In this document: positions 28,453-63,732 of the stretch, piece after piece
Layout: each line of letters begins with the position of its first letter
Numbering within the stretch: the stretch's first letter is position 1
IMG/VR virus record: IMGVR_UViG_3300029908_000016
Coordinates: 17,006 to 81,005 of that record
Strand: one strand, 5' to 3'
Source: a virus
Length of the DNA: 64,000 nucleotides
The notes under the pieces: generated by a model
Database searches by the model: none
Seen by the model: only the letters and a program-made list of their open reading frames with translations
What the model was told of the DNA's origin: nothing
Position numbers and translations under genes: made by a program

Positions 28453-29796
28453 ATGTTTGTAAATTACGATGAGTTTAAAAAATACTCAAAAGGTTCTGGA
28501 AGGAAAGTTGAAATAACTTGTGAAAAGTGTAAAAAAACAAGACTTAAAACAGTTGCAGAATTATATAAATTTAATAGACATTTGCCAGACTCCACACATG
28601 GCTGCGTGCACTGTAAAAAAGATGTCGCAGAAAGAAATAATTTATTAAAATATGGTGTAAAGAATACATCGCAATTACCTGAAGTTAGAGCAAAACATAG
28701 AGCATCTTGTTTAAAAAACTTAGGTGTAGAATTCCCTATGCAAAATAAGGACGTACAATCTAAGAATAAAAAAACAAATTTAATACGTTATGGAGTAGAA
28801 TGCTCTCTTCAAAATCCTGAAATTAGAAAGAAAAGTTTAACTACATTATTTAATAATTATGGGGTAGATAGCGCAAATAAAAATGAAAGTATAAAACTAA
28901 AGGGTATAAAAACTAAATTAAGAATATATGGAACATTACATCCTAGGATTAATAAAGAGGAGAATAAATTAAAGGATTTTTTAAATTCTTTTGGGTTTAA
29001 TTTTATTTCTGATTATGACTTATTAAGTGGTAAAGAAATAGATGCTTACGACATTAATCTAAAATTGGGGATAGAGTATTGTGGGCTTTATTATCATAAT
29101 GAGCTATCTCCCAACCCGAGAGATAAAGATTATCACAATAATAAAAGATTAAAATGTGAAGCCCAGGGAGTTAGACTAATTACTATATTTGAAGATGAAT
29201 GGAGACGTAGAAACAGCCAAGTTAAAGGTTATTTAAAGGCAATTTTAAATAAAACAAATTTTAAGATATACGCTCGAAAATGTTTAGTTAAGGATATAGA
29301 TAAAAAAGAAGCTAACGCCTTTATCAATAAATACCATATACAAGGAGCAAACCTTTTAGGTATTTATTTTGCAGGATTGTATTATAAAGAAGAATTAGTT
29401 GGAGTTATGAGTTTTGGAAAACATCCTAGAAACTTTCGAAAATTAACTTTAGATCGTTTATGTTTTAGAGAAGATTATTCAATAATAGGAGGGGCTTCTA
29501 AGATGTTTGTCTATTTAACCAAAAAATTTGATATACACGAGATTATTAGTTGGTCGGATAATCGATGGTCGCAAGGTAATGTGTATAACGCTTTAGGATT
29601 TAACTTAGACGAAGAATTACCTCCAGATTATAGCTACGTATATATTAAAAATCCTGTAGAACGTTTATCTAAACATTCTCAAATGAAAAGAAATACTAAG
29701 TGTCCTATTGATAAAACAGAACTAGAGTGGGCAACTGAAAGAGGGTTAGCAAGAATTTGGGACTGTGGTAAAAAAAGATGGATATGGAAATCGTAA
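28453..29796 (+). CDS. VSR/PDDEXK-type homing endonuclease
   Basis: The 447-residue protein has an N-terminal zinc ribbon (ITCEKCKKTR with GCVHCKKD), three Y-G-V repeats of DNA-binding type (for example LLKYGVKNTSQLPEVRAK), a VSR-like nuclease core (KEIDAYDINLKLGIEYCGLY, then NNKRLKCEAQGVRLITIFED) and a C-terminal domain ending IWDCGKKRWIW. The layout matches free-standing homing endonucleases of large phages. It sits against the grain between a virion gene and the beta N-terminal gene, ending 2 bases from the latter. A relative occurs at 43471. Confidence 0.82.
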   Translation: MFVNYDEFKKYSKGSGRKVEITCEKCKKTRLKTVAELYKFNRHLPDSTHGCVHCKKDVAERNNLLKYGVKNTSQLPEVRAKHRASCLKNLGVEFPMQNKDVQSKNKKTNLIRYGVECSLQNPEIRKKSLTTLFNNYGVDSANKNESIKLKGIKTKLRIYGTLHPRINKEENKLKDFLNSFGFNFISDYDLLSGKEIDAYDINLKLGIEYCGLYYHNELSPNPRDKDYHNNKRLKCEAQGVRLITIFEDEWRRRNSQVKGYLKAILNKTNFKIYARKCLVKDIDKKEANAFINKYHIQGANLLGIYFAGLYYKEELVGVMSFGKHPRNFRKLTLDRLCFREDYSIIGGASKMFVYLTKKFDIHEIISWSDNRWSQGNVYNALGFNLDEELPPDYSYVYIKNPVERLSKHSQMKRNTKCPIDKTELEWATERGLARIWDCGKKRWIWKS

Positions 29797-36372: not shown

Positions 36373-36759
36373 ATGATTAATATCGACGAACTCACATTAA
36401 AAGATATCAAAGCAATTCAACAAATTGTTGTTCCAACGATTGGAACACCTAACCATAATACTAATCCAGATCAACCGTATCACCCAATGTTGGGTAAACG
36501 TTGTTTGGTACGTACTTACAGTGCAGGTGTACACATTGGGGATATCTCTTATGTGAACGGTATGGAAGTGAAATTGACAAATGCACTGCGCCTGTGGAAA
36601 TGGGAAGGCGGCGGTTTGTCGTTGTCGGCAATTGCCAATGTTGGAATGAAAGGTGGACGTATCGACGTAACCAATGAAGTATACCTCACCAATGTAATCG
36701 AAATTATCCCCACAACCAAGGAAGCAGAAAAAACCTATGTCAAATTCATTGAAAAATAA
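36373..36759 (+). CDS. DUF6948-like phage protein
   Basis: Start at 36373 (MINIDELTLKDIKAI) because GAAAGGA lies 4-5 bases before it; an ATG-less extension to 36337 lacks support. The domain shows GKRCLVRTYSAGVHIGDISY, VEVKL-like MEVKLTNALRLWKWEGGG, then LSLSAIANVG. This pattern (V-R-(T/S)-Y-S-A-G-V, then W-x-W-x-G) matches the DUF6948 family of phage proteins of unknown function. It is the first gene after promoter copy 4 and overlaps the Gly-rich gene by 23 bases. Confidence 0.72.
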   Translation: MINIDELTLKDIKAIQQIVVPTIGTPNHNTNPDQPYHPMLGKRCLVRTYSAGVHIGDISYVNGMEVKLTNALRLWKWEGGGLSLSAIANVGMKGGRIDVTNEVYLTNVIEIIPTTKEAEKTYVKFIEK

Positions 36760-37060
36760 ACATCATGGCCACGATTTACATCATGGCCACGATTTAAAAG
36801 ATGGCTCTGATGGCTCTGATGGCTCTGGCTCTGGCGATGGCTCTGGCTCTGGCTCTGGCGATGGCTCTGGCTCTGGCTATGGCTATGGCGAGGGCGAGGG
36901 CTCTGGCTATGGCTCTGGCTATGGCGATGGCTATGGCTATGGCGATGGCTATGGCTATGGCTCTGGCTATGGCTCTGGCTATGGCTCTGGCTCTGGCGAT
37001 GGCTATGGCTATGGCTATGGCGATGGCTATGGCGATGGCGATGGCTCTGGCGGAGGTTAA
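36737..37060 (+). CDS. Gly-X repeat protein (107 aa)
   Basis: After MSNSLKNK and two HHGHDL units, the rest is a strict alternation of Gly with Ser, Asp, Tyr or Glu (GSGDGSGSGYGYGEGEGSGY is typical). Every repeat Gly is GGC, a codon otherwise little used in this AT-rich genome, so the hexamer (GGC-NNN) seems to have expanded recently. Reasons to take this frame as coding: coupling to the upstream gene, a clean TAA, and a terminator 4 bases later. Other frames are also open because the repeat contains no stops. A flexible, perhaps metal-binding or adhesive, surface protein is possible. No family is recognised. Confidence 0.55.
   Translation: MSNSLKNKHHGHDLHHGHDLKDGSDGSDGSGSGDGSGSGSGDGSGSGYGYGEGEGSGYGSGYGDGYGYGDGYGYGSGYGSGYGSGSGDGYGYGYGDGYGDGDGSGGG
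36761..37056 (+). repeat. 18-bp direct repeat and GGCNNN hexamer array
   Basis: CATCATGGCCACGATTTA occurs twice in tandem (36761-36778, 36779-36796). It is followed from about 36800 by about 40 hexamers GGC-TCT, GGC-GAT, GGC-TAT or GGC-GAG. Variation is confined to the last three positions of the hexamer. This is a low-complexity array prone to slippage. Confidence 0.9.
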
Positions 37061-40499: not shown

Positions 40500-43466
40500 A
40501 TGTCCGATACTCATAAAGTTGTTCTCGATCATGGCAAGTTGGCAAAATCTCCAATTGATAAAAAATCCGATTATAGTTTTTTATCCCCTTCTTCGTTTTT
40601 CTCACCAACTACCAATTTGATTCCTCAGTTGTCAGGTATATCCGGTGGTCGTGTATTATTGGGGGACAAAGCTAGCCTACAGGCAATATCGTTAGTGCAC
40701 CGTGAAGCCCCTTTAGTCAAATCACGTAATGAAGAAACTGACGAATCATTTGTAAAAGAATATGCCAAACCAATGGCAGCTGTTTTTTCGAAAGTTAAGG
40801 GAAAGGTAAACAGTATAAAAGATAACATAATTATGGTTGGTGACACTCCACACCATATTTACGACAATTTCCTGACGGGACATAAAAGCTTCATTCATCA
40901 TGAGCCGATTGTAAAAGTTGGAGATGAGGTTAAAGAAGGTGATTTATTAGCCAAAAGTAACTTTACAGATTCCCACGGTAATTTGGCGTTGGGAGTCAAT
41001 TTAACAACTGCTGTCATGCCTTATCGTTCTTCGAATTACGAAGATGCGTATGTTATTACCGAGGCAGGTGCTAAGAAACTGGCAGGTGAGCAAATGATTC
41101 CCCTGACGGTTGAAAAGGAAAGAGGGCTGGATTTCAATAAGAATAAATATATTTCGTTGTTCCCCAATAAATACGTCAATTCTCAACTTGAAAATGTTGA
41201 TTCTGATGGTGTGATTAAAAAGGGTACAACGGTAAAGAACGGTGACCCGTTGCTTTTGAGCTTCGAACCCAGAACATTGAGAACGACCGATGCGCAGCTT
41301 GGTAATATTTCAGGTATATTAAAGAACGCATTTTCTGATCGTTCACAAAAATGGGAATATGATTCTCCGGGTGAAGTAATGGATGTGGCAAAGACTAATA
41401 AATTGGTCACGATTACTATAAAAACGAGAAGACCGATATCAGTGGCAGACAAGCTATCCGTAAGTGCTGGTGCAAAAGGTGTGGTTGGCGCGATACTATC
41501 GGATAGTCAATCCCCAGTAACGAAAGATGGAAAACCAGTAGATATTATCTTGAATTCCATGTCCGTTGTTTCGCGGGTAGCTCCAGGGTTGTTAACATCG
41601 ATAGCTTTAGGTAAAGTTGCTCAAAAAACTGGTAGAGCACTATCTATTAATGGCTTTGATGAAAAGTCGAATATTGATAATGCACAAAAGATATTAAAAG
41701 AAAACGGCTTGCATGAAATGGAGGATATTTATGATCCACTATCAAACAAGCATTTGAACGTAATGGTGGGACCAATGTACGTTACTCGCCTACATCATAT
41801 ATCGGAAGATAAAGCCTCAAGTAGAGGGCAGGGAGGCAGTTACGATATCAATATGCAACCTGCAAAAGTATCAGGAGGTGATAAGAGTAAACGACTAGGT
41901 AATCTAGGTACGAATATTTTAATATCTAGAAACATGCGTCATGTTCTCGAAGACGCAGGAACAATACGGGGAACAAAAAATGATGAATATTGGCGTAAAT
42001 TGAAATTAGGTGAAGATTTACCAAATCCAGAAGTTCCATTTATTTTCAATAAATTTATTTCTCATCTTGAAGGAGCAGGTATAAAAGTACAACGGGATGG
42101 TACTCGGTTTAATGTACTACCTCAAACAAATAAGGATGTTGAAAATTTATCAAAAGCAGAGATTGAAAATGCTAATATATATAAATTAAAAGCTGGTGAA
42201 TTGATACCTGAGGAGGGAGGTTTATTTGATGTTAATAAAGTAGGTATTGGAGGAGATAACTATACACATATTAATTTGAAGTACCCGGTTATTAATCCAA
42301 TTACTGAGGATTATATTCGTAAGACCTTAAATATCACAAAAGATAAATTTAATGATCTGGTAGGCAAAGGACAATTGATCGATTTATTAAAGTCAATCAA
42401 CTTAGATAGTAAAATCAAAGAATTAGAAAAAGATATTAAATCGGCTAGAAAATCAGACAGGGATAATAAACTAAAGGTCTTGGCTTTTCTTAAAAATCTA
42501 AAGAACAATAACATTGATCTTAAAGATTTGATCATCAATAAAATACCGGTAATACCTGCAAAATTTCGTCCACTGGTTGTACAAGGAGGAAGAGTAATAT
42601 CATCTGGTGTTAATGAGTTATACAGAGATTTAATGTTAGTGAATCAAAGCACTGACGGATTGCCAGAAGATATAGCTGAAGGAGTCAGGCGCAAACAATA
42701 CGATGGAGTAAAAGCTGTTTATGGATTAGGTAGCCCAATTTCTACAAGAAATGAAAAAAAGAATTTTAAAGGATTATTGGCATCTGCTTTAGGCTTACAA
42801 GGAGGCTCAGCTAAAGGTAGTATGTTCCAATCAAAGGTTGTCAATAAACCTTTGGATCTAACTGGTAGGGCAGTCTTAACTACGGATTCAAATTTGGATA
42901 TTGATGAAGTATCTTTACCTCATGAAGCTGTTTGGAAAAGTTATAGCCCTTTTGTAATTCGTCGATTAGTACAATCAGGGTTACCCGCTGTACATGCAAA
43001 AGAATATGTTGAAAATAAACATCCTATTGCAAGGGAGCATTTATTGGATGAATTAAAGGATCGACCGATTAATGTTATTCGTGATCCTCAAATTGCCTTA
43101 CATTCAAGTCAGGGGTTTTTTGTTAAGATGAATTCCGATCCAAAAGATACGTCGATTAAGTTGAATCCCCTTCTTAGTAAAGGATTCGCATACGATCTTG
43201 ATGGAGATGCGTTAACATACTTCGTACCTTCTAGTGAGAAAGCCAAGGATGAAATTAAGAACAAAATGCTACCATCCAAAAATCTACTTTTTCCTAGAAA
43301 TTTTGGGCCTGCCTATATACCTTCCAATGAATCCGCTTTAGGTTTATATCAGGCTTCTACACTGAATAATAAGAATAATCCCAGAAAATTTAATAACGTA
43401 GACGAAGTGAGGAAGGCTTATGAAAAAGGAGAGTTGCATCTAGGCGATAATGTATTATTGTCTTAG
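40500..43466 (+). CDS. RNA polymerase beta (C-terminal)-beta' (N-terminal) fusion
   Basis: The 988-residue protein holds two polymerase halves. Residues 1-380 match RpoB: TNLIPQLSGISGGRVLLGDK (S-L-I-P-F-L-x-H-x-D-A-N-R-A-L-M-G), APLV, SNYEDAYVITE (N-F-E-D-(S/A)-I-L-(V/I)-S-E), ADKLSVSAGAKG with Lys318 and Lys326 at the 8-residue spacing of the two active-site lysines, and DGKPVDIILNSMSVVSR. The second half matches RpoC: LQGGSAKGSMFQSKVVNKPL, LTGRAVL (G-R-S-V-I), and YDLDGDALTYFVP with DLDGD at 899-903 (catalytic DFDGD). It ends where E. coli beta' is near residue 550. The beta' clamp/zinc N-terminus is much reduced. A homing endonuclease gene follows at once. Confidence 0.9.
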   Translation: MSDTHKVVLDHGKLAKSPIDKKSDYSFLSPSSFFSPTTNLIPQLSGISGGRVLLGDKASLQAISLVHREAPLVKSRNEETDESFVKEYAKPMAAVFSKVKGKVNSIKDNIIMVGDTPHHIYDNFLTGHKSFIHHEPIVKVGDEVKEGDLLAKSNFTDSHGNLALGVNLTTAVMPYRSSNYEDAYVITEAGAKKLAGEQMIPLTVEKERGLDFNKNKYISLFPNKYVNSQLENVDSDGVIKKGTTVKNGDPLLLSFEPRTLRTTDAQLGNISGILKNAFSDRSQKWEYDSPGEVMDVAKTNKLVTITIKTRRPISVADKLSVSAGAKGVVGAILSDSQSPVTKDGKPVDIILNSMSVVSRVAPGLLTSIALGKVAQKTGRALSINGFDEKSNIDNAQKILKENGLHEMEDIYDPLSNKHLNVMVGPMYVTRLHHISEDKASSRGQGGSYDINMQPAKVSGGDKSKRLGNLGTNILISRNMRHVLEDAGTIRGTKNDEYWRKLKLGEDLPNPEVPFIFNKFISHLEGAGIKVQRDGTRFNVLPQTNKDVENLSKAEIENANIYKLKAGELIPEEGGLFDVNKVGIGGDNYTHINLKYPVINPITEDYIRKTLNITKDKFNDLVGKGQLIDLLKSINLDSKIKELEKDIKSARKSDRDNKLKVLAFLKNLKNNNIDLKDLIINKIPVIPAKFRPLVVQGGRVISSGVNELYRDLMLVNQSTDGLPEDIAEGVRRKQYDGVKAVYGLGSPISTRNEKKNFKGLLASALGLQGGSAKGSMFQSKVVNKPLDLTGRAVLTTDSNLDIDEVSLPHEAVWKSYSPFVIRRLVQSGLPAVHAKEYVENKHPIAREHLLDELKDRPINVIRDPQIALHSSQGFFVKMNSDPKDTSIKLNPLLSKGFAYDLDGDALTYFVPSSEKAKDEIKNKMLPSKNLLFPRNFGPAYIPSNESALGLYQASTLNNKNNPRKFNNVDEVRKAYEKGELHLGDNVLLS

Positions 43467-43470
43467 TTAT

Positions 43471-45108
43471 ATGATTAGAAACGATTTAACAAAAGAAAAA
43501 TATGGTTATGTTTTTTCTGATCTAGGTAAATATTCAAGAAATTTTTTAATTTTCCAATGCGACTCTTGTGGGGAAATTATCGAAAAAATTCGAAAAAATT
43601 TTAGAAAGTGGTTTACACTTGAAGATAAGGCTTTCTGTACTAAATGTATGGCAGCGGCCAGAGAGTATGGAATAGCTAAAAAATATACTTCTTACGAAGA
43701 ATACTTAAATACAAGACATCAAAATTTAAAAAAGAATAATTTAGCTAAATATGGAGTAGAAAATGTTTCCCAGTTATCGGAAATTAAGGAAAAAAAGGTA
43801 AATACTTTTTTAAAAAATTATAATCATACCTCCTATATACAATCCGAAGAAGGCAAAAAACATAGAGAAGCAAGACTTTTGGAAGTTTACGGGGTTAAAA
43901 ATTGCTCTCAAAGTGATGTGATAAAAGACAAAAAAGAAAAAACTTTTCTAAATAGATACAACGTTAAAAATATTTTTCAAGATGAGGCGATCAAACAAAA
44001 TATACAAAAATATTTTTTAGATAATTATAATGTCGTAAATCCTAGTCAAATACCTGAAGTACAGAATAAAAAAGAAATATCCTGTTTAAAGAGTACGGGT
44101 TATAAACATAATTTCATAAATCCTGTTATAAGAGAAAAGTCTAGAAAAGGTTGTCTGGCTACAGGTCGTTGGAAATTTCCTGAAGAAGGTTATGTTAAGA
44201 AAATTGCCGAGGAAAAAGGTATAAGTACTGAGACTTTTTATAGTTTTGTCAGAAGATTCGGTGTCGAGCAATTCGAGGAAAGTTTTCGACTGCGAATGAC
44301 AAAAATCGAATTTGTCGTTAAGCAATTTTTAGAGAGTCTCAAGATGCCTTATATATTTAATAAGAGAATAACTACAGATTGCAACCCTAACAAAAATAAG
44401 AAATTTAGTAGACCTGATTTTATCGTACCTAGTAACAGGGTAATTATAGAATGTGATGGTTTATTTTGGCATTGTGATAAATTTAGAGATAAAGATTATC
44501 ATGTTGATCGCAGAAAATATTTTGTTGATAATAATTATTTTCCGTTATTCTTTAGAGAACATGAAATTTTACATCATCAAAAAATTGTCGAATCCATCAT
44601 TAAAAATAGATTAAATTTAATTACAAATAGAATATTTGCCCGAAAGACTACTTTAAAGGTAGTTGAATTCGAAGAAGCAAAATTGTTTTTTACAAATAAT
44701 CATTTGATGGGTAAGGGGTTGGGTGAAACATTGGGCCTTTATTCTAACGACCGCCTAGTGTTAGCCATGCAATATAGATGGAAAAATAAACAAGATAGGT
44801 TGCTAGAGATATCGAGGCTTTGCCCTCTGATAGACCATTCGATTATAGGCGGATATTCCAAATTATTAAAATTTCTGATAAAGTTAGAACACCCCAAACA
44901 AGTTGTTAATTTTATAGATAAAAGATATGGTGATGGTAATTACTTATCGCAATTCGGGTTTGTAAAGGAGTCAGAGTTCATCAGTTTTCAATGGACTGAT
45001 TTTATACATACTTTTCATCGTATGAAGTATCCTTCTAATTCCGGTTATGATAACGGGTTGTATAAGATTTGGGATTGTGGTCAAGCCAAATATGTACTAA
45101 CGTTGTAA
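43471..45108 (+). CDS. VSR/PDDEXK-type homing endonuclease
   Basis: Start placed at 43471 (MIRNDLTKEKYGYVF), just after the polymerase stop; an ATG at 43450 would overlap it. The 545-residue protein has a zinc ribbon (FQCDSCGEII, FCTKCMAAA), several Y-G-V or Y-N-V repeats (AKYGVENVSQLSEIKEK), a nuclease core (FSRPDFIVPSNRVIIECDGL, FWHCDKF, then DNNYFPLFFREHEI) and a C-terminal domain ending YKIWDCGQAKYV. It is clearly a relative of the endonuclease at 28453. It lies exactly between the two coding parts of beta'. Confidence 0.85.
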   Translation: MIRNDLTKEKYGYVFSDLGKYSRNFLIFQCDSCGEIIEKIRKNFRKWFTLEDKAFCTKCMAAAREYGIAKKYTSYEEYLNTRHQNLKKNNLAKYGVENVSQLSEIKEKKVNTFLKNYNHTSYIQSEEGKKHREARLLEVYGVKNCSQSDVIKDKKEKTFLNRYNVKNIFQDEAIKQNIQKYFLDNYNVVNPSQIPEVQNKKEISCLKSTGYKHNFINPVIREKSRKGCLATGRWKFPEEGYVKKIAEEKGISTETFYSFVRRFGVEQFEESFRLRMTKIEFVVKQFLESLKMPYIFNKRITTDCNPNKNKKFSRPDFIVPSNRVIIECDGLFWHCDKFRDKDYHVDRRKYFVDNNYFPLFFREHEILHHQKIVESIIKNRLNLITNRIFARKTTLKVVEFEEAKLFFTNNHLMGKGLGETLGLYSNDRLVLAMQYRWKNKQDRLLEISRLCPLIDHSIIGGYSKLLKFLIKLEHPKQVVNFIDKRYGDGNYLSQFGFVKESEFISFQWTDFIHTFHRMKYPSNSGYDNGLYKIWDCGQAKYVLTL

Positions 45109-48762: not shown

Positions 48763-51018
48763 ATGGCATTTAAAAAGCATTCTGCACCTACAAAGGGTGA
48801 TGAATTAGAATCCTCTTTCTTTCAATTGAGTTACAACCTACTTCAAGACAAGTGTAAGGCTTTGCTGCCATATTTAATAGGCTTTGAAATAAAGGACAAA
48901 ACTGATGATGGTACGAAAGCTTTGGGAATGTTTGGTTTTCGCGGAGATGAAGGACAAATATTATTTGTTCCTGTATTCTTTGTCAACGGTTCGGTAAAGG
49001 GTCTGGATATTTTATATTCTCGTGATTCCGAGCAGTTTTATCCTTTGAATGAGGATTTCGTAGAAATGTTGATCGGCAAAGACAATCAGCAAGCAGGTGC
49101 AAAGTCAAACGAGTCTCGTCAAAGTGTCATGGCTGACAATTCGACGAACGGTATTCTCGATATGGTGCGTCCTCCTCGTACTGGAAAATATACGTATGCC
49201 AGCAGTGATGAGTTTCCTACACTTTTGGAAATGATTGAAAAACATGATCGTAACATCAAATACTCATGTTTGGACTTTATCAAGAATTCCGATAATTTTG
49301 TTAAGAAATCGTTCGATTCCCTCTTGAGCAGGAATTCAGATTTTCTAGAAACATTGTTGAGATATCATTCAGTTGAAAAGATCGCTGAGGCTTTGGTGCC
49401 TAAGGTATTACCTCCTAAAGACAAACCTGGAAAAGAGTATCGGGATGCTGATCAAGTAAAATTGATTAATGAAGGTGAAACAGACAAGGCAAAGGTATTG
49501 GACGAGGCAGAGAAACAGGAATTGGCTACCAAGGGTTTTGTTATAGTCGATAAACGACCAGAGGAAAAGAAATCGAAATTTGCACCTGTAAATCTAGCTT
49601 TAAGTTTTGCCAATCCTTCGGTTTCTGGATTTTACCCTTATCTTACACAATCTGGTGAAATACGTTATGGTCTGGTTCTGGTTAAACCTGAGCAACTGAA
49701 TTTACATTTTACTTTAGATGACTCAATAGTTGTCGATTTGGACGCAGATAAAAAGGGTAAGGCATATATCGTCGATACCAAGAAATTGTTTGTTAAGAAT
49801 CTTATCGTTGTTCAAGATTATAAAGACGTTTATCGTGGGTTTGAAAATCCTTCCGATGTTAAACCTGGATTTTCAGAAATTTATGTTTTAATTAATGAGA
49901 ATTTGAAAGCTACCCAACCCTTTCGAATAATCGCTAATTTTAAAGACTCCTCAGGTATTCGGCGTTTGAATGTAGAACCCTGGCAATCTTACGAACGTAC
50001 AACATTGGATAATTACGGTACAAAGCCGTTAAAAACTGGAGAACGTCCGGGTAGTGTGCACAGCTTACCAGATGGTAATTATTATAATAATCCAAAGAAG
50101 GTTTCTAAACAATTTTTGGTAATGACCAAGAATGTTGGTGATAAATTTACTATCAAAGGTGAAACGACTTACGTTCCTGCAGGCTATAAGCTTTTAAAAC
50201 TTGATCTGACCAATGTATATGACTCGAATGGTGGAGTAGATGAGGATTATGTAAGAGGTAAGCCAGGTGGTCTGGATGCTTTGAATGTTGCATTGGGCGA
50301 ACGCCAAGTATATCCGATGACTATTCATAATAATGGTAGTGAATATTTTGTTAGCGTAAAGGATGTACAAAAACGGTTCAAAAATGATCGTATGGCCAAG
50401 ATCGGTATGGTTATGGATTTTGGATTGGGTTATAAAGAAGCTTGTGAAGTGATTGATAATATTCGGCCTACTTACAAAGTTAAGGGTTATCTAAAGGTTG
50501 CGGATACAGGAGCTTATCCTGCACAGCCAATTGAAGAAGTACCTTATATTAATGAATTTGGTACGCCTACTTATCAGGGATATGGTACGGAAAATGTGGC
50601 ACCCATCGATAATTATTACGACAAAGATCCTACGAGAATGGGGTTGGGTGTAAAACCAGATGTCGAGGGTATCGATACTGAAATCAATAAAGCTATTCAA
50701 ATGGCTCAAAGTGGGCAGAAAGAAGTCTTTGATTCTCATACAATTGCTACAATGGCTAAGTACGTTAATCCTTCAGACAAGATCACGGAATATACTCCTA
50801 AACTTTTAGACGCTCTTGATAAGCTGGGTAGACTATTATTCCTTACTCATTGGGAAGTCGATAAATTCACACAGATGTATGGTCGTGATGACATGCCCAA
50901 GTTCATTGAATTATTGACAGATGTATTCCGTAATCTTGGTGATACAATTATTTTTCTTAAACGTAAATCTCCGGATTTGACTATTAATATGGGTCAACAG
51001 GATGCATTGGATGTTTAA
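48763..51018 (+). CDS. Large hypothetical virion-type protein (751 aa)
   Basis: The protein begins MAFKKHSAPTKGDELESSFF and has a long beta-rich first half (GQILFVPVFFVNGSVKGLDI), an acidic linker with KDNQQ and Lys/Glu stretches, and a C-terminal helical part (VDKFTQMYGRDDMPKFIELL). No family is recognised. Position among structural genes, size and lack of enzyme motifs suggest a major capsid-associated or portal/neck-type protein. A TATAAT at 48753 lies 10 bases before the ATG. Confidence 0.65.
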   Translation: MAFKKHSAPTKGDELESSFFQLSYNLLQDKCKALLPYLIGFEIKDKTDDGTKALGMFGFRGDEGQILFVPVFFVNGSVKGLDILYSRDSEQFYPLNEDFVEMLIGKDNQQAGAKSNESRQSVMADNSTNGILDMVRPPRTGKYTYASSDEFPTLLEMIEKHDRNIKYSCLDFIKNSDNFVKKSFDSLLSRNSDFLETLLRYHSVEKIAEALVPKVLPPKDKPGKEYRDADQVKLINEGETDKAKVLDEAEKQELATKGFVIVDKRPEEKKSKFAPVNLALSFANPSVSGFYPYLTQSGEIRYGLVLVKPEQLNLHFTLDDSIVVDLDADKKGKAYIVDTKKLFVKNLIVVQDYKDVYRGFENPSDVKPGFSEIYVLINENLKATQPFRIIANFKDSSGIRRLNVEPWQSYERTTLDNYGTKPLKTGERPGSVHSLPDGNYYNNPKKVSKQFLVMTKNVGDKFTIKGETTYVPAGYKLLKLDLTNVYDSNGGVDEDYVRGKPGGLDALNVALGERQVYPMTIHNNGSEYFVSVKDVQKRFKNDRMAKIGMVMDFGLGYKEACEVIDNIRPTYKVKGYLKVADTGAYPAQPIEEVPYINEFGTPTYQGYGTENVAPIDNYYDKDPTRMGLGVKPDVEGIDTEINKAIQMAQSGQKEVFDSHTIATMAKYVNPSDKITEYTPKLLDALDKLGRLLFLTHWEVDKFTQMYGRDDMPKFIELLTDVFRNLGDTIIFLKRKSPDLTINMGQQDALDV

Positions 51019-54596: not shown

Positions 54597-54974
54597 ATGC
54601 CTGTATTATCTGAAGTAAATTCCATCAATGATAAATTATGGACGGTTACAATCTCGATCCAACCCGGTTCATTATCTCAAGCTGATGCACAATTACTTGC
54701 TAAATTTGGTGAACCTTCAATAAATACGGGGGCGACTTTGGAGAGTGGAGGATTAGCTTATACACTTCCGAATAACTATATTCGAGTTGTTTCTGATATG
54801 CCTTATATCCAAACATTCGATTCCTCTACAGCTCCATTTAATCAAGGATTTAGTAATACAGCATTACAAGTAAATGCATTTATAACGTATTTTAATGCTA
54901 CATATCTCGCTGCTTTCGTGGCACTTAGGACGAATGTGGATACATGGTCGGGGCAGTCATTGGTAACTATTTAA
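54597..54974 (+). CDS. Hypothetical virion-type protein (125 aa)
   Basis: A beta-type protein starting MPVLSEVNSINDKLWTVTIS, with YTLPNNYIRVVSDMPYIQTF and a C-terminal hydrophobic stretch (AFITYFNATYLAAFVALRT). Little Lys/Arg. It may be a small decoration or connector protein. The next gene, an endonuclease, starts 11 bases later. Confidence 0.6.
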   Translation: MPVLSEVNSINDKLWTVTISIQPGSLSQADAQLLAKFGEPSINTGATLESGGLAYTLPNNYIRVVSDMPYIQTFDSSTAPFNQGFSNTALQVNAFITYFNATYLAAFVALRTNVDTWSGQSLVTI

Positions 54975-54985
54975 TTAATTTTTTT

Positions 54986-56020
54986 ATGAAATATCAGAGA
55001 ATTACATTAGAAAATATTTCTAAAATTAGAGATACATACCTTGAAGGTAATAGTACTCCCGAAGTAAGTGCTCTATTAGGAATTTCTGAAGGGTCTGTTC
55101 AACGTGTTGTTAAGGAGTTAGGGATTTCTCGCCCGCTTTCAGAGGCCACTAAATTGGCCTTGACTAGGGGGCGAGGCGTTCTAACAGAACAAGGTAAACG
55201 ATCTAAACAAGAAAAATTAAAAAAACGTAAATATAAAAAAGGACCTGACCACTATCTGTATAAGGCAGAGACTATTCGGGAAGGTACGTGTTTTTATTGT
55301 GAAGAATTATTTAAGTTATCAAGCCACCAAATTTTTTGCCTGAACCACAACGAAGATGGTAAATATAAAGTTTTCTGCTCTGCCAAATGTCATAATCAAT
55401 TTCAGAAAGAAGAAATAGGTTATGGTGTATTTAATTGTCTTTTTTGTAACGAAGAAGTCGAGGTTAAGAAAGGTATGTTAAAGCGGCGTAAGTTTTGTAG
55501 TGGTAAATGTGCCGCACTACATCAATTAAAATACGGGAATCGTGTTTATGGGGTTGAGACAAGTATTGAAAAGACGATGAGGGAGATGCTTGAGAAGAAT
55601 AAAATTGAATTTGAAACACAGAAGGATATAAAAGGAACCAATACTATACCTGATTTTTTTATTAAACCTGATATTTGTATTTATTGTGATGGCGATTATT
55701 ACCATTCTTCAGATAAAGCAAAGTTAAAAGATATGAAGTTATCCAACGAACTTATGGATTTAGGGTATCGTGTAATTAGGTTTCCCGGCTCTCAAATTAA
55801 TTGGAATATTGGTCGAGTAGAAGATACGCTTTTTGAATTTATAAATGAACCTAAGTATACATTTAAGAACATTCCATTAAATTTACTTAAAAAAGATAAA
55901 GATATGTTTTCTGGGTCTACAGTAATTGCTTTTCCATTCCCGAAAAATAGAGAACCTTTGTTAGTAAAAATTCAAGAACAACCAAAATCACCTATCGAAG
56001 AAGAATTAGTAACCGTATAA
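54986..56020 (+). CDS. Homing endonuclease with HTH and VSR-like nuclease
   Basis: Start placed at 54986 (MKYQRITLENISKIRDTYLE), 11 bases after the previous stop. An N-terminal HTH (STPEVSALLGISEGSVQRVV) is followed by two zinc clusters (CFYCEELF, CSAKCHNQF, CLFCNEEVE, FCSGKCAALH) and a VSR-like core (IPDFFIKPDICIYCDGDYYH, then NELMDLGYRVIRFPGSQI). It resembles phage free-standing endonucleases. A third such gene in the window, placed between two small virion-type genes. Confidence 0.8.
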   Translation: MKYQRITLENISKIRDTYLEGNSTPEVSALLGISEGSVQRVVKELGISRPLSEATKLALTRGRGVLTEQGKRSKQEKLKKRKYKKGPDHYLYKAETIREGTCFYCEELFKLSSHQIFCLNHNEDGKYKVFCSAKCHNQFQKEEIGYGVFNCLFCNEEVEVKKGMLKRRKFCSGKCAALHQLKYGNRVYGVETSIEKTMREMLEKNKIEFETQKDIKGTNTIPDFFIKPDICIYCDGDYYHSSDKAKLKDMKLSNELMDLGYRVIRFPGSQINWNIGRVEDTLFEFINEPKYTFKNIPLNLLKKDKDMFSGSTVIAFPFPKNREPLLVKIQEQPKSPIEEELVTV

Positions 56021-56201: not shown

Positions 56202-56669
56202 ATGAACAAAGAACAATCAATCATTAACGGATTCCTTAAAGCTGCAATGGCTAAAGGATATACTCAACACGAAGCACTAGAAATTTGTAAACAGGCAAAT
56301 ACTTTGGAGGCTGTCATAGAAGCTTTAAGTCGTGGGGCAGGCAAAGTTAAAGATTTTGGTATGAATCGTGTAAACGATGTTTATAATATTCCGGAGAATT
56401 TTACAAAAGCTACAGATCTCTCAAAACAGTTAAATCCACTAAGAGCAAAGAGTCCTACTCTAAAAGGAGAATCACCAGAACTTACAGCATTCTTACGAGA
56501 TAAAGCTGATGAAGAAGCTAAACACTATATGGGATTAGCTAAAGGTGTAGGTACCGTTGGTGCGGGGTTAGGTGGATTAGGACTAGCTGGTTATGGGGCC
56601 GCACGAATGATGTCTGGTAACGATCAACAACCTTCTTACAAGCAAGCAAATTTGGGGGGGGGCAGCTAA
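56202..56669 (+). CDS. Virion-type protein with helical-hairpin module, poly-G frameshift site
   Basis: The N-terminus is one of the clearest module copies: IINGFLKAAMAKGYTQHEAL, then EICKQANTLEAV. A Gly/Ala segment (GVGTVGAGLGGLGLAGYGAA) follows, then SYKQANLGGGS and a stop just after a run of nine G (56654-56662). With one G fewer the frame continues for about 54 more codons through AAKSIIGSTF and VASGTVLGTAPVLGLATVL to a TAA at 56826. The longer product has two hydrophobic helices, like its relatives. The stop may reflect homopolymer error, slippage or phase variation. Confidence 0.72.
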   Translation: MNKEQSIINGFLKAAMAKGYTQHEALEICKQANTLEAVIEALSRGAGKVKDFGMNRVNDVYNIPENFTKATDLSKQLNPLRAKSPTLKGESPELTAFLRDKADEEAKHYMGLAKGVGTVGAGLGGLGLAGYGAARMMSGNDQQPSYKQANLGGGS

Positions 56670-56828: not shown

Positions 56829-58259
56829 ATGCCTAGTTTATCTAAAAGCCAACAACGGTATATGGGTATGGTTAGAGCCTTGCAAGAAGGTAAGCTCTCT
56901 CCTAATAAGGTGTCTCCAAAATTACGTGAAACAGCCAAGGAAATTTCACCACAGGATGCTCATGATTTTGCGATTACAAAGCATAAAGGTCTACCTGAAC
57001 ATGTGAAGAAGGCTGAAGGATTTAGTGTAGGAGATTTTAATACAGGAGATTTTAATACAGGGGATTTTAATACAGGGGATTTTGCGGCTAATTTAAAAAA
57101 TACGCAGAAAGAATTTAAGCAGAAGTCAAATATTTCTGCTTCTAAAGCTAGAGAATATGAAGAACGCTCGGATGCTTTAACGCATAGTAGTAAGCTTTAT
57201 CCTAAAGGATATAAACATTGGGTAAAAAATTTTTCTAAGAAACCTGATAATCAAAATGTACCATTAAGAGATAATACCCCTGGGCATTTAAGAATTTTGG
57301 AGAAGGATCAAGATATTCCATGGCAGGCAATTCCGATTAAAGATTATAAATCTCCATTACACACCAAAATATTTTCTCATCTATCGAAGCATAAATTACC
57401 TTACGGAGTAGCTGCTGGTATAGGAGCTTTAGGAGCAGGGGCATACGGTGTACACAAATTAATGAAGAAAGAATCTGCACCTATCATTACTCCAGAGATT
57501 GCTGCAGTTATTGATAAAATATTTAATAATACTGGCTCAACATCTTTTTCTGCGCTGACAAAAAATTTAGGTAGAGCAAGAGGAACAGCTTCAAATATAG
57601 TAGAACAAGAAGGGAATGAGGCGTTTCCATTAACGCAATCACGTACTCAACCACGAAGAGAAGAATTTACGATCAAATCTGTGCAATCTCCTTCTCCGAA
57701 TAATTTTGAAGGACTGGGTAACATGAACGGATATACTTATAAACAAGCTCAAGAACAGTATATTACAGGATTTGCTAAACAAGCATTTGCACATGGGTTG
57801 AATGTAGAGGGTACAAAGGAGTTAATGATCAAAGCAGGGTTTGTTAAGGAAGCATTTTTAGTTCCACTACTAATGCGACTAGGTGCAATGATTGGAGGAG
57901 GATGGGGGGCAGAGGCACTAGGCGCAAGATTAGCCGCTAGATCGGCAATAGCAAAAAGAGAAGCGGCTGCGGCTATGGATTCTATGCCTGGTCAAGTATA
58001 TGGTCCTCCAATCGACCCTAATGTAGCAAAGAAATTTAATGTTAAATCAACGATCACACCAAAAATTAATACATGGGCAGATAGAGGAAATCAAATTTTA
58101 AATAGTGTAGGGGATTTTCATTCGAGAAATAGTTGGATAGCCCCTAATGCAGGAGGTTTAATTGCTCCTTTACTAGCAGAGCCTTTCATTAGTAAATTTG
58201 ATACATCTACGGAACAATCTGAACCTTCTCAAGCTCCTCCTGATCCTTTGAATAATTAA
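56829..58259 (+). CDS. DUF3008 protein with repeats and two virion modules (476 aa)
   Basis: Residues 1-60 match DUF3008: SKSQQRYMGMVRALQEGKLS, then DAHDFAITKHKGLPEHV. Next is a tandem GDFNT repeat. Around residue 180-205 lies HLSKHKLPYGVAAGIGALGA, nearly identical to the segment in the 19945 gene. Around residue 315-345 is a copy of the helical-hairpin module (YITGFAKQAFAHGLNVEGTK, then FVKEAF). A Gly/Ala stretch and Pro-rich end follow. The stacking of modules makes it a virion protein by analogy. It starts 2 bases after the poly-G gene's second-frame stop. Confidence 0.72.
   Translation: MPSLSKSQQRYMGMVRALQEGKLSPNKVSPKLRETAKEISPQDAHDFAITKHKGLPEHVKKAEGFSVGDFNTGDFNTGDFNTGDFAANLKNTQKEFKQKSNISASKAREYEERSDALTHSSKLYPKGYKHWVKNFSKKPDNQNVPLRDNTPGHLRILEKDQDIPWQAIPIKDYKSPLHTKIFSHLSKHKLPYGVAAGIGALGAGAYGVHKLMKKESAPIITPEIAAVIDKIFNNTGSTSFSALTKNLGRARGTASNIVEQEGNEAFPLTQSRTQPRREEFTIKSVQSPSPNNFEGLGNMNGYTYKQAQEQYITGFAKQAFAHGLNVEGTKELMIKAGFVKEAFLVPLLMRLGAMIGGGWGAEALGARLAARSAIAKREAAAAMDSMPGQVYGPPIDPNVAKKFNVKSTITPKINTWADRGNQILNSVGDFHSRNSWIAPNAGGLIAPLLAEPFISKFDTSTEQSEPSQAPPDPLNN
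57030..57083 (+). repeat. 15-bp tandem repeat inside the DUF3008 gene
   Basis: The unit GG(A/G)GATTTTAATACA occurs three times plus a partial fourth (57030-57083), coding GDFNT repeats. It varies at one purine position and stays in frame, so protein length can vary in 5-residue steps. Confidence 0.85.
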
Positions 58260-58260
58260 T

Positions 58261-59331
58261 ATGGATATACAAAAATTTAAACAAGGCTTTTTAAAATCAG
58301 CAATTGCTAAAGGTTATACCGAAGCACAGGCTTTGGAAATATATAACAAAGATTTGGAAAAGTATGCTGATAATTCGAATATTAAAGATATTAAAAGATA
58401 TAGTTATTCAGATGGTTATGACTCATATGATGTACCATTAACATCTAATTTTGTAAAAAAGCATAAATTTAAAGATAATAATATTAATGTAGGGTTTGAC
58501 CACTCTGGTAATATTGTAGGTACAGGTATGGATCATGCTTTATATGAGTTATCTAATAAACCAACTAAAAGTACATTACCCGAAACTTTAATTTCTGGAG
58601 GAGTAGGTTCGGCATTAGGTACAGGTTTATCAGGTGCTTTATCTAAAGGCCATGGCACATGGAAAGAAAGATTATTGACGGCTTTACCATCCGCACTTCT
58701 AGGAGGGTCAGTGGGAGGTTTACTAGGTAATGAAATAGGAAACGCAATACGTAATGGAGATAAAGATAGTGCTAAATACGAAATCCACGATGCTATGAGA
58801 AAAGCGTATTTTAGAAATTATGTGGATAGAGGTATGATGGATAAAAAAGCTGCCGATCAATACACGCCAGAAGACTATCAGCAAATCAAGCAACTACTTG
58901 CCTCTAAAGGCTATAATCCGCAATATAACATTGATGATACACACCCATATGCTAGAGAGTATAATCAGAAGTTAATGCAACTGAGAGATAGTAATTTCAA
59001 TGCTAATCCTGAAATACAGGGATTAAAATCTGGTGTTGGACATGCTGCTCTTGGGGGCTTAGGAGGTTATGGTCTAGGTCATGTAGCTGGTGAATTCACT
59101 AAACGATTTGCTAATCCAAGTATTGCTAAACATTTACCAAGATGGGGTAGGGCTGTTGGAGCGGCTGTAGGCGCACTAGGAAGCGGTTTATCGGGTTATC
59201 ATAATGCTAAAGCGCAAACATCTGCGGTTAAAAAATTAACAAACCCTACAGCTTTACGTCAGACTTTCGATCAATTGTCAGCCGAACGACAATATGGTAA
59301 TAATCAGATTGGTCAATATCGTGCTTTGTAG
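58261..59331 (+). CDS. Virion-type protein with helical-hairpin module (356 aa)
   Basis: The N-terminus (KFKQGFLKSAIAKGYTEAQA, then LEIYNKDLEKYA) is the best module copy. A polar part follows, then Gly/Ala-rich stretches (LISGGVGSALGTGLSGALSK, SALLGGSVGGLLGNEIGNAI, AALGGLGGYGLGHVAGEF, GAAVGALGSGLSGYHNA) and a basic C-terminus. It starts one base after the upstream stop. Function unknown, perhaps an injected or capsid-interior protein. Confidence 0.65.
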   Translation: MDIQKFKQGFLKSAIAKGYTEAQALEIYNKDLEKYADNSNIKDIKRYSYSDGYDSYDVPLTSNFVKKHKFKDNNINVGFDHSGNIVGTGMDHALYELSNKPTKSTLPETLISGGVGSALGTGLSGALSKGHGTWKERLLTALPSALLGGSVGGLLGNEIGNAIRNGDKDSAKYEIHDAMRKAYFRNYVDRGMMDKKAADQYTPEDYQQIKQLLASKGYNPQYNIDDTHPYAREYNQKLMQLRDSNFNANPEIQGLKSGVGHAALGGLGGYGLGHVAGEFTKRFANPSIAKHLPRWGRAVGAAVGALGSGLSGYHNAKAQTSAVKKLTNPTALRQTFDQLSAERQYGNNQIGQYRAL

Positions 59332-59343
59332 TATTATAAATTT

Positions 59344-60270
59344 ATGCCTTCAGAAATTAATAACGAACATATACAAAAACTACTGCACAATTATCTTTCG
59401 CAGAAGAATCCTGATTTAACAGATTTTGACAAGCAAGATATTGATGGTCTATTGCACGACGCTCTTACGGGTGTGGAGTCTGCTCAATATTTGACAGGGC
59501 ATAAAAAGAAGGAAGTTGAAACTTTTTATGATAAACATCCTGTACAAGCGACTGTTCAAGATACATTGAATAAAGCACCTGCATTAGCAGCTGGAGCAGT
59601 TGGATTACAGACTGGTCATAGTTTAATTAAAGATTTTTTATTGAAACGTAAGATTGATAAAGCAATGAAGGGGTCAGACAAGAAACCGGGAATGTCTGCT
59701 TTGACATCTGAAGACTATACAAAGAGTCCAGATTTACAACGGGTATTTCGCCATGCTACAAAGGAAGTTGATGGTAAACGTCAATTCAATCCCCAAAAAG
59801 ATCCTGGTGTTTACGCGGATACTTACCAGAAATTGAACGTTGGTAAATCAGAATTACAGAAGCCAAATGCTACTGGCCCACTAGCCGATTTACTTCAATC
59901 TTCAGGTCGTAAGGATGAACGATTGGTAAGATTGATGAGTCAACATTTTCCAAAAGATACATTGGGTAATGGAGAGGTAGCAAGAAAAGATTATTTTGGA
60001 CGAATGGCTCAAGAGCTAGGTGGTGTGAATTCTTCAAGGGCTGCAAATATTGGAAAAGAAACAGCCAAACGTATAGCAGATCCAAATATGCATTTCAAGA
60101 ATATGCTATCACATGTCAATCCAAGATTAGCTATAGGTGCGGCAGGAGTGGGTGCGGCAGGTCTTGCATTAACACCTGTTATCAGTTATCTTCAAAAACA
60201 CGTCTACGGTAAAGATAAGGTAAAAGATTGGATGAAGAACAAACGAATGACCGAAGGAAAATTCGATTAA
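59344..60270 (+). CDS. Virion-type protein (308 aa)
   Basis: Helical, with TLNKAPALAAGAVGLQTGHS and NPRLAIGAAGVGAAGLALTP as Gly/Ala segments at about residues 80-95 and 260-280, and basic, Lys-rich linkers. The N-terminal 60 residues (IQKLLHNYLSQKNPDLTDFD) do not obviously contain the module. No family is recognised. Confidence 0.6.
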   Translation: MPSEINNEHIQKLLHNYLSQKNPDLTDFDKQDIDGLLHDALTGVESAQYLTGHKKKEVETFYDKHPVQATVQDTLNKAPALAAGAVGLQTGHSLIKDFLLKRKIDKAMKGSDKKPGMSALTSEDYTKSPDLQRVFRHATKEVDGKRQFNPQKDPGVYADTYQKLNVGKSELQKPNATGPLADLLQSSGRKDERLVRLMSQHFPKDTLGNGEVARKDYFGRMAQELGGVNSSRAANIGKETAKRIADPNMHFKNMLSHVNPRLAIGAAGVGAAGLALTPVISYLQKHVYGKDKVKDWMKNKRMTEGKFD

Positions 60271-60355: not shown

Positions 60356-60733
60356 ATGAATTCTGATTTTATTAGAGGGTTTACTAAAAAAGCTAGATCA
60401 TATAACTATGGTAGTAGAGATGTTCTAACTTTCTTATATAAGGGTAACTTAAGAAAGAAAGCTAATAAACAGGTAGTAGGTAGGTTAGATAGTAACGGTG
60501 TAAAAAATGTTATATTAAAAGATATTTCGGAACAACATGGCATACCTATTAATTCAATTAATATGCACCATAAATATGTTAAAGATTTAGGTTTTGATAG
60601 TCTTGATAGCATTGAACATGTTATGGCTATGGAAGAAAATTTACAATTAACTCATAGCTTACCTGACGATGTATTAGAAAAAGCTACAACACCTCATGAA
60701 TTTCATACTTTACTTATGAAAAATTATAAATAA
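60356..60733 (+). CDS. Acyl-carrier-protein domain with virion module (125 aa)
   Basis: Start taken at 60356 (MNSDFIRGFTKKARSYNYGS), which puts the hairpin module at the N-terminus as in the relatives; ATGs at 60317 and 60320 are alternatives. The module ends near LYKGNLRKKANKQ. The remainder matches an acyl carrier protein: LKDISEQHGIPINSINMHHK, then VKDLGFDSLDSIEHVMAMEE, with Ser82 of D-S-L as the phosphopantetheine attachment site, and a C-terminal helix (TTPHEFHTLLMK). ACPs carry acyl groups for fatty-acid or lipid A synthesis and bind many partners. An ACP linked to a virion-type module is unusual. Confidence 0.75.
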   Translation: MNSDFIRGFTKKARSYNYGSRDVLTFLYKGNLRKKANKQVVGRLDSNGVKNVILKDISEQHGIPINSINMHHKYVKDLGFDSLDSIEHVMAMEENLQLTHSLPDDVLEKATTPHEFHTLLMKNYK

Positions 60734-60970
60734 ATGAAATTATCTGGTTTAATTGACTTATTGGTAGAGCAATCTGACTTTTATTGTTTGGACCCCGAAG
60801 TAATTATCCATGAAGACAATACTATTAAATCTCCAAATTTTGAATTAAGTTATTCTACAAAATCCTATCGCGTGGAAAAAGGTGTGACGACAGATTTAAA
60901 TGCTCCTGGGCTTATAGTTTTAAAATATAAGAATAGACTTACTGAAGAAGAGTATCATAGTAACTATTAA
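60734..60970 (+). CDS. Hypothetical small protein (78 aa)
   Basis: MKLSGLIDLLVEQSDFYCLD starts the protein, which continues as a beta-rich part (ELSYSTKSYRVEKGVTTDL) and ends in LTEEEYHSNY. The ATG follows the ACP gene stop directly. No family is recognised. Confidence 0.55.
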   Translation: MKLSGLIDLLVEQSDFYCLDPEVIIHEDNTIKSPNFELSYSTKSYRVEKGVTTDLNAPGLIVLKYKNRLTEEEYHSNY

Positions 60971-60975
60971 TCGAA

Positions 60976-62385
60976 ATGCCTTTAATCAAATTTAGCACTA
61001 CTGAAGACTTTCAATCCGATGTTGAACCCGTCGCGATTGTGGAGGATAACAAACAGTTATCAAAACGTTCAGGTAGTGAAAAATTTAAAAATATAAAGGT
61101 ACCAAAGCATCAGACACCTGTGCATTTAATTGCATTAGGAAGCTATGAGGGGACAGGTTGTAATAGAAATTTTGATTATTTTCTAGAGGAGTATTGTCGG
61201 AAAAATCACTATACTTTTGTTAAGGCAGGAAGGGCTGTTCATATACAACATAAAAATAAACCTACTGACCCTAAGTATGGAAATGTTTATGGCTCGGATT
61301 ATAACGAGAAAATGAAACGTGTGGAGTTATTTATTGGTATTGATAGTAACGCTTCTCGGATGGCAAAATCATTGCAAAAACTTGCTAGTGGTAAACAAGT
61401 TTCTTATTCGATGGGTAGTAGTCAGACGTTTGATCGCTGCAGTATATGCAGACATAAAAGTTATAATGGTAAGACAGACAGATGCTCACATATTCCAAAA
61501 AGATTAGGGGAAATTACTAAAGAGGGAAAAGTTGTTGCGATGGAGAATCCAGATCCGAACTGGTTTGATATTAGCGATGTCGATTCCACGAGGGGAGCAG
61601 ACAGAATTGCATATTCCCTCAATAAACAAGCTTCTGATTCTATATTGGATACTCCCCAAGTAAGGTATGAAAATAATTTAAAGCTAGCTTCTGAAATATA
61701 CCTTCCTCCTTCGTTAGTATTATCGAAATATGCTTCCTCGAAGAGGGCATTACTCGATAAAATATCGAAGATGGAAAAACATATCGATGCGATAGCTTCT
61801 GGTAAAGTAACCAATTCAAAAGATAAATATATCAAGGAGCAGGCTTCAAAATTAAATTCGACACCTGCTATATCTGATACTACGATTTCTGAGTTACGGG
61901 CATTTACCGATCATACCAAGTTATTAAAAGCATTAGCTGACAAGGGAATAATTTTTAGCCCTGAGGAATTTTATAAATATATCTTTGATAACAAGCTTGA
62001 TGATTCTTCGTTGAAGGGTATGAAATCTCATTTACCAGATATTCATGAAGAGCTAGCAAAGGATGATCAGGAAATTAATAACGATGATATGTATCCTGAA
62101 GAGGGTAAATTACCCTTACGTTTAATTGAATTGATTCGAAGCCTTACGGACGAACATTCATTATTTGATGGTCCTGCTCATAATCGTATTATTCGTATTA
62201 CGATGATCAAGAAGGTTCCAGGGGAATTGAAAAAAGAATCTTCAGAAAAGTCGGATTCATTATTTGCAAAACAATTAGCTTTGAAGTATGCGAACTATCA
62301 ATTGAGTGCATTATCATACTTGAATGACAATGATAAACTAACAGACGATCTAATTATTAATACATTAATATTGAATAGAGGATAA
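60976..62385 (+). CDS. Possible prohead protease-like protein (469 aa)
   Basis: The N-terminal 220 residues carry a pattern seen in head-maturation proteases of large phages: GTGCNRNFDYFLEEYCRKNH, TFVKAGRAVHIQHKNKPTDP, VYGSDYNEKMKRVELFIGID, KQVSYSMGSSQTFDRCSICR, C-x-H and DPNWFDISDVD. A His in HIQHKN and a Ser in SYSMGS could be the His/Ser pair of an S78/U35-like protease; a Cys-rich insert (CSICRHK, CSHIPKR) may bind zinc. The C-terminal half is helical and acidic. Assignment is from pattern only. Confidence 0.5.
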   Translation: MPLIKFSTTEDFQSDVEPVAIVEDNKQLSKRSGSEKFKNIKVPKHQTPVHLIALGSYEGTGCNRNFDYFLEEYCRKNHYTFVKAGRAVHIQHKNKPTDPKYGNVYGSDYNEKMKRVELFIGIDSNASRMAKSLQKLASGKQVSYSMGSSQTFDRCSICRHKSYNGKTDRCSHIPKRLGEITKEGKVVAMENPDPNWFDISDVDSTRGADRIAYSLNKQASDSILDTPQVRYENNLKLASEIYLPPSLVLSKYASSKRALLDKISKMEKHIDAIASGKVTNSKDKYIKEQASKLNSTPAISDTTISELRAFTDHTKLLKALADKGIIFSPEEFYKYIFDNKLDDSSLKGMKSHLPDIHEELAKDDQEINNDDMYPEEGKLPLRLIELIRSLTDEHSLFDGPAHNRIIRITMIKKVPGELKKESSEKSDSLFAKQLALKYANYQLSALSYLNDNDKLTDDLIINTLILNRG

Positions 62386-63000
62386 ATGAATATTTTTCAT
62401 AGAAAAGGATTTATTAACGCTGCCGTTGATAGAGGCTACACAGTAGGAGAGGCAGAAGTAATTTATAAGCATGCTACTATTGACAAAGAATTACCAAACT
62501 ATAGAGACAAATATAACACAGATTTAGATGCTCCTGAACAAGCTAAGATTAGAAATTATTTAGTAGATAAATATTATAGTGATGATGCGCCAGATTTATA
62601 TTTAGATAAATCTAAAGCCTCTACGAGAAGTGGCGCAACTGCAGGAGCCGTCGCAGGGTCAGCTATAGGTTTAGGAGTAGGTGCTTTAACACATCAGCCT
62701 TTATTAGGACTTTCTGCAGGAGGCTTAACAGGCTCTTTAATTGGAGGGTTTCATGGGTATTCTGTTTCTAAAAGAGATAAAGAATTAAATAATAAATCTT
62801 TGACTAATTTGAGGGATCGTATCTTTAAAAGAAAGTTTAATGAGTTATCTGACTATAAATATGACTCACTTAATAAATTAGATGTTGACAATGATGAGTA
62901 CTTTACCAAATATAAGCCAATAGAAAATTCTGTATTTGAAGACAAAGATTACCAGAAAGATTGTGAGATGCTCCATCGTTTAAAAAAACTTTTGGCGTAA
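62386..63000 (+). CDS. Virion-type protein with helical-hairpin module (204 aa)
   Basis: The N-terminus (IFHRKGFINAAVDRGYTVGE, then AEVIYKHATIDKE) is a clear module copy. A Gly/Ala segment (TAGAVAGSAIGLGVGALT, LSAGGLTGSLIGGFHGYS) follows in the middle and a charged C-terminus. It begins at the stop of the protease-like gene. Function unknown. Confidence 0.65.
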   Translation: MNIFHRKGFINAAVDRGYTVGEAEVIYKHATIDKELPNYRDKYNTDLDAPEQAKIRNYLVDKYYSDDAPDLYLDKSKASTRSGATAGAVAGSAIGLGVGALTHQPLLGLSAGGLTGSLIGGFHGYSVSKRDKELNNKSLTNLRDRIFKRKFNELSDYKYDSLNKLDVDNDEYFTKYKPIENSVFEDKDYQKDCEMLHRLKKLLA

Positions 63001-63081: not shown

Positions 63082-63732
63082 ATGAATAAAGTAGCGTTTT
63101 TCGAATTTCTCAAAGAAGCCAAACGTCAAGGAGCTTCTGGACAAGACGTAGCAAACGTCCTCAAAGAAGCTTCAGGCGAACAAATCGACCCTCATCAACT
63201 TGAAGCATTGTTATCACAATTACCTCCTGATGGTGGGGAAGGACATCCTGAACAAGAAACACACGGACATCCTGAAGCAGGTGGTGCTCCTCAGCTTTCA
63301 GAAGAAGAAATCAATCAAATCGCTCAAATCGTTTTACAGCATTTACAAGAAGCGGAATCTCAAGGTGGAGCAGGTGCAGGTATGCAAGGTCTTCCTCCTG
63401 AGCATCAAGCAGGGTTGGACGCAGCTAAAACGGCTGAATATATTGGTGAATTTATTAAACGGGCAAATGAGTATGGAATTGGGGCAGAAGCTAGTGTGAA
63501 TATGTATTGCACGTTTTTGGATAATTCTATTTCTAAATTACAAAAGATTTCCGAATATAATTTAGGAGTATCGAAAGTAGCTGCAGATGTCGATGAGTCC
63601 ACACTTTCGTATTTTCAAGGTGTTGCAGAGAAAGCAGCTAGTGAAAATTTATCATATGAACAGACTTTAGAGATACTACAGAAATCAGGTGCAGCAGAAT
63701 CTTTAAAGAATAAGTTTACTTTCAATCAATAA
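63082..63732 (+). CDS. Virion-type protein with two module copies (216 aa)
   Basis: The N-terminus (VAFFEFLKEAKRQGASGQDV, ANVLKEASGEQ) and a second stretch near residue 130 (EYIGEFIKRANEYGIGAEAS) are module-like. The middle is Glu/Gln/Gly-rich (EQETHGHPEAGGAPQLSEEE). The C-terminal part has LSYEQTLEILQKSGAAESL. Gap upstream (63001-63081) holds no ORF. Probably a scaffold-like or core virion protein. Confidence 0.65.
   Translation: MNKVAFFEFLKEAKRQGASGQDVANVLKEASGEQIDPHQLEALLSQLPPDGGEGHPEQETHGHPEAGGAPQLSEEEINQIAQIVLQHLQEAESQGGAGAGMQGLPPEHQAGLDAAKTAEYIGEFIKRANEYGIGAEASVNMYCTFLDNSISKLQKISEYNLGVSKVAADVDESTLSYFQGVAEKAASENLSYEQTLEILQKSGAAESLKNKFTFNQ

Follow-up and report, generated by a model that had tools for sequence, protein, structure and literature searches.

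An uncultured viral record of 81,005 bases encodes an acyl carrier protein (ACP) preceded by an apparent copy of a short module that also sits on other proteins of the phage head cluster. The gene lies on the plus strand at positions 60356–60733 of the window, the 64,000-nucleotide stretch analyzed here, and its 125-amino-acid product was assigned through Pfam, PDB, PHROG and AlphaFold/Foldseek comparisons. In the favored reading, which is given about an even chance, this protein is internal virion cargo, i.e., an ACP brought into the particle by a head-targeting tag, loaded by host AcpS, ejected and acting early. Phage ACPs themselves are known and common, and the novelty therefore lies in the fusion of an ACP to the module and in the cargo-tag system surrounding it. 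Usually, the ACP of a phage is classed with the metabolic genes that are expressed once infection is under way; a virion-type tag opens another, testable idea.

The preliminary description of this DNA had proposed a 125-residue open reading frame with a full ACP domain and a D-S-L attachment serine, and translation, Pfam, PDB and PHROG all agree with it. PF00550 passes its Pfam cutoff (24.1 bits; cutoff 20.8), acyl carrier proteins of the PDB match with an E-value of 3e-8, and PHROG 5934 (“acyl carrier protein”) with 7e-7. NCBIfam ACP models reach 5e-11, yet remain under their equivalog cutoffs; TIGR00517, the equivalog model of housekeeping AcpP, scores 36.4 bits against a cutoff of 70.45. 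Given these unreached cutoffs, the domain appears to be a diverged ACP. The same description had made the assignment depend on an ACP fold in structure prediction, and AlphaFold and Foldseek do return this fold. In the AlphaFold (AF2) model, built with 23 viral ACPs, the predicted four-helix domain spans residues 46–124 (60491–60727; helices 46–61, 82–96, 104–109, and 113–124), with a pLDDT of about 94–96 across most of the domain. Compared with solved ACPs in Foldseek, the domain model deviates by about 1.5 Å, with TM scores of 0.80–0.89 normalized to target length. D81-S82-L83 (within DLGFDSLD) occupies the canonical site at the start of helix II, and alignment to E. coli-type and viral ACPs marks Ser82 (codon 60599–60601, in GFDSLD) as the expected attachment site of 4'-phosphopantetheine. 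The acidic helix-II positions D81, D84, E87, E93, and E94 are the same as in E. coli AcpP in the PDB alignment, where they serve in binding AcpS.

That the gene is instead a decaying ACP remnant, tagged by chance and devoid of modification or function, appears very improbable. Its frame is open, the motif and the acidic helix II are intact, the fold is confidently predicted and the neighboring genes are tightly spaced, although the scores under the NCBIfam equivalog cutoffs, the degenerate tag described below and the absence of a homologue that could show selection would all fit such decay. The collections searched yielded no orthologue of the tagged ACP, and single-sequence searches of viral contigs with the ACP, the RNA polymerase or the protease returned zero relatives.

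Between codons 2 and 69 the frame is devoid of ATG, which makes it very probable that the ACP domain is produced together with its N-terminal extension in every case; with the other possible starts, 60317 or 60320, the protein would simply be longer. Within this extension, the putative module covers residues 5–31 (FIRGFTKKARSYNYGSRDVLTFLYKGN; 60368–60448), as judged by a module HMM, a ranking of N-termini and predicted helices at residues 3–15 and 20–42. The good match is limited to residues 5–16 (FIRGFTKKARSY; 60368–60403), while the remainder is degenerate and the near-invariant glycine of the module is replaced by Asn17. An HMM trained with the ACP protein excluded scores residues 5–16 at 6.0 bits, a value reached by none of 5000 shuffles. 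With the first 45 residues as the ranking query, 13 of the 15 top matches were module proteins (98 such proteins among 13,455 distinct ORFs), compared with 0–2 for 30 shuffled N-termini. The single E-values of these matches are weak (0.01–0.4), and the case for homology of the tag thus rests on the enrichment among the top matches. As far as these comparisons go, residues 5–16 appear to be a partial, degenerate copy of the 27-residue module, with a resemblance that is non-random. The earlier claim that the module is joined to the ACP therefore stands as to its presence, which the ranking and the HMM agree on, but has to be narrowed to the part that matches well; the module is also carried by other head-cluster proteins. 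Being degenerate and missing the near-invariant glycine, the tag of the ACP protein may have stopped working by now.

The module itself, a helix-turn-helix of 27 residues with the consensus YIxGFxKxAxxxGxxxxEAxELxKxA, occurs in five further window proteins, all on the plus strand and detected by module searches, in part together with Pfam. It is N-terminal in the head-cluster protein at 56202–56669, in the protein at 58261–59331, which has glycine-zipper-like segments, and in that at 62386–63000, which has one such segment. It occupies residues 310–336 of the protein at 56829–58259, which has a weak DUF3008-like start, and residues 119–145 of the protein at 63082–63732, which follows the protease in scaffold position. 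The profile trained on relatives, with the ACP protein excluded, finds 65 domains in 47 proteins at 30 loci, and 14 of the 16 records searched, the window's own among them, show 2–11 matches each. No full module match was obtained in Salmonella phage Arash, and none of the isolated phages in the phage collection carries the module. Across 55 module-protein sequences, the ACP protein included, Pfam identified DUF6321, DUF3008, EF-hand, acylphosphatase, and Gly-zipper domains as well as an R2K ATP-grasp match marginally below cutoff; PF00550 was found in the window's ACP protein alone. The scaffold-position protein contains 1–3 module copies in 13 relatives, and in contig L007 a capsid protein is encoded downstream of it. 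The scaffold of phage T4 occupies the corresponding place after the protease. Furthermore, several relatives exhibit runs of adjacent small genes, each of which begins with the module and continues with unrelated sequence. Due to its attachment to unrelated domains and its repetition in the scaffold-position protein, the module has the appearance of a capsid-targeting tag carried by interchangeable cargo, and its distribution is the anatomy that would be expected of a scaffold-binding loading tag.

Gene islands were observed in contigs L217 (1–7001), L218, L219, L220, and L221 (IMG/VR records G058, G064, G056, G001, and G051, respectively), whose genes share the N-terminal module MNTEQAYIEGFVKRAxEYGFS.. 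and have unrelated C-termini, resembling a tagged cargo arsenal. A 702-aa protein (L219:1096–3204) combines a Pfam acylphosphatase domain at residues 242–299 with an internal module at 411–430; its RelA/SpoT-like look received no confirmation from Pfam and is not claimed. In a 417-aa protein (L217:322–1575), an R2K ATP-grasp-like domain, just below the Pfam cutoff, is accompanied by a C-terminal module. Elsewhere in the window, putative homing or HNH-type endonucleases lie between the RNA polymerase and the head genes (43450–45108, 54944–56020, and 28453–29796), a 1138-aa ribonucleotide-reductase-like protein (13167–16583) contains a putative intein (LSTHLLTKEGIKQLRDIKIGDKIWS..), and a low-complexity coding or repeat tract of the GSGDGYG type (36737–37060, about 300 bases) has several open frames on either strand.

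The head cluster agrees in gene order with Arash and Vibrio phage D69. Its homologues in Arash are gp216–218 and gp220–223, which were identified in virions by mass spectrometry (PMC10585845). The plus-strand gene at 48763–51018 encodes a structural protein homologous to the Arash virion protein gp218; its assignment as portal was dropped, as gp218 is merely annotated “structural” and the Arash portal is gp204. Further along the same strand follow a head-cluster protein (59344–60270), the ACP gene, a 78-aa ORF that starts right after the ACP stop (60734–60970), and a prohead (head maturation) protease-like protein (60976–62385), which matches phrog_18299 (1e-9) and resembles Arash gp222 and Bacillus phage G gp19. 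Only the 78-aa ORF, for which no family match was found and whose AF2 model is uninformative (pLDDT 40), hence separates the ACP gene from the downstream protease gene. A host search in genome contigs found nothing.

In the closest uncultured relatives, in which the head protein is 42–48% identical, the homologue of the 59344–60270 protein is directly adjacent to the protease in every contig in which the two were mapped, namely in 14 contigs (two near-identical here, and one being the L007 contig) and in L236, and neither an ACP nor the 78-aa ORF lies between the two genes in any of these. PF00550 was found nowhere in the 15 records scanned for it, and a scan of Arash, D69, and Bacillus phage G found no ACP. 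Whole-record scans of 50 relatives returned one free ACP, in the distant relative G047, and one sub-threshold match in G006, which was rejected as it runs antisense to a structural gene. The G047 protein, which is free, 88 aa long and encoded among small non-head genes, is not an orthologue of the tagged ACP. As the upstream gene and the protease of the relatives abut with neither ORF between them, the ACP gene and the 78-aa ORF are best read as a lineage-specific insertion, the latter probably belonging to the same inserted cassette. Their GC contents are 27.5 and 30.4%, respectively, and those of the neighbors 33–40%.

The same comparison bears on a role of the ACP domain in assembly, where it would act as a structural adaptor whose prosthetic or acyl group or helix II binds another head protein. 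Mitochondrial ACP binds LYR proteins and AcpP binds MukB, and the chains of complex I and MukBEF that Foldseek matched come from solved complexes in which ACPs are protein-binding adaptors; the position among head genes would likewise suit an adaptor, and the co-inserted 78-aa ORF could be its partner. However, all comparable relatives possess this head cluster without the ACP, so that it is no core assembly part, and no LYR-like partner was identified, rendering this role improbable.

The main rival to the cargo reading is an auxiliary metabolic (moron) ACP, derived from a host and aiding fatty-acid or lipid metabolism in the infected cell, whose tag is an idle vestige of the insertion. Phage ACPs are usually interpreted as auxiliary metabolic genes, viral contigs commonly encode free ACPs, and both the degenerate tag and the low GC content of the gene, which fits a recent gain, speak for this rival. 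Conversely, the gene lies inside the head cluster directly ahead of the protease, and it has retained an extension of about 45 residues that free ACPs of 74–85 aa lack. Moreover, no other fatty-acid genes were noticed among the window ORFs and no phosphopantetheinyl transferase was found on the contig (81 kb, probably incomplete). Taken together, a purely metabolic role is considered unlikely, though it is a serious contender.

One scan confirmed 116 ACP-encoding viral contigs, a part of which may be bacterial DNA assigned to viruses in error, and published ACPs exist for phages SH19 and R22Y, contradicting the earlier statement that phage ACP-like proteins are rare. Because the search pattern contained DSLD, serine conservation among these viral ACPs is biased and partly circular. 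As a specificity control, the module was sought in 5901 ORFs around 80 viral ACP loci and was absent (best match E 4.6). The module-tagged ACP is a rare form, with a single one found, among the 55 module-protein sequences, and none among the 80 viral ACP loci. Three phage-collection matches (H1, H3, and H4) were rejected as phage ACPs and interpreted as host DNA contained in phage records since they adjoin ordinary bacterial genes (fabD-fabG-acpP in H1). The INPHARED records CAKLQH020000007, MT837285, and MT837406, listed as phages, have ordinary bacterial genes beside an ACP and likely represent host DNA. A 452-aa viral protein (L113:5659–7017) carries its ACP domain (about residues 108–178) after a basic, lysine-rich N-terminus.

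According to the favored cargo reading, the N-terminal module would be a prohead-targeting tag working like the T4 capsid targeting sequence, and would bind the scaffold-position protein, with its copies of the same module, so as to bring the ACP protein into the head during assembly. The payload would be the C-terminal ACP domain, which would receive 4'-phosphopantetheine from host AcpS and may become acylated by enzymes of the host. Cleavage by the head protease may take place in the flexible linker, at about residues 31–45; no protease cleavage site was identified. Leaving the head together with the DNA, the ACP would be active as soon as infection begins, for example by serving as a decoy or a carrier in the acyl-ACP traffic or signaling of the host. 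In evolutionary terms, the ACP gene and the 78-aa ORF would have entered the lineage as an insertion ahead of the protease. The first step, from tag to head, is supported by the anatomy of the module proteins, whereas cleavage, ejection, modification and effect are steps that we infer, as is packaging itself; the phage may carry the ACP in its particle. Both uses suggested in the preliminary description, delivery of the ACP to the host or a part played in the particle, would fit all of the evidence. A stronger version, in which holo- or acyl-ACP enters with the injected DNA and intercepts the acyl-ACP metabolism or signaling of the host at that moment, and the module serves as the general virion-loading tag of the lineage for an exchangeable set of proteins, is put forward tentatively and is rather doubtful. 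If true, a fatty-acid carrier, perhaps one already modified in the host infected before, would reach the new cell along with the phage DNA. More generally, the module makes it possible to search by sequence for packaged cargo proteins in this uncultured lineage of phages.

With bacterial AcpP (PF00550; TIGR00517), the tagged ACP shares the four-helix fold, the DSL serine and the acidic helix II, but differs in its N-terminal extension of about 45 residues with the phage module and in two extra residues ahead of helix III. Phage free ACPs (PHROG 5934 and 4154; SH19; Alteromonas phage R22Y gp30) are similar in being phage-encoded; in contrast, the 80 viral ACP loci lack the module and most of their ACPs are 74–85 aa long, with 110 aa for that of SH19. 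Targeting propeptides and ejected head proteins are known in T4 and SPN3US (PMC5694885). The T4 capsid targeting sequence and the propeptides of T4 IPs, SPN3US and phiKZ resemble the module as short N-terminal elements on unrelated proteins, with genes near the prohead protease and a proposed route into the head. Unlike these elements, the module is about 27 residues long, can also be internal or C-terminal, and is repeated in the scaffold-position protein. T4 and SPN3US are precedents for the mechanism, to which the tagged ACP is related by analogy.
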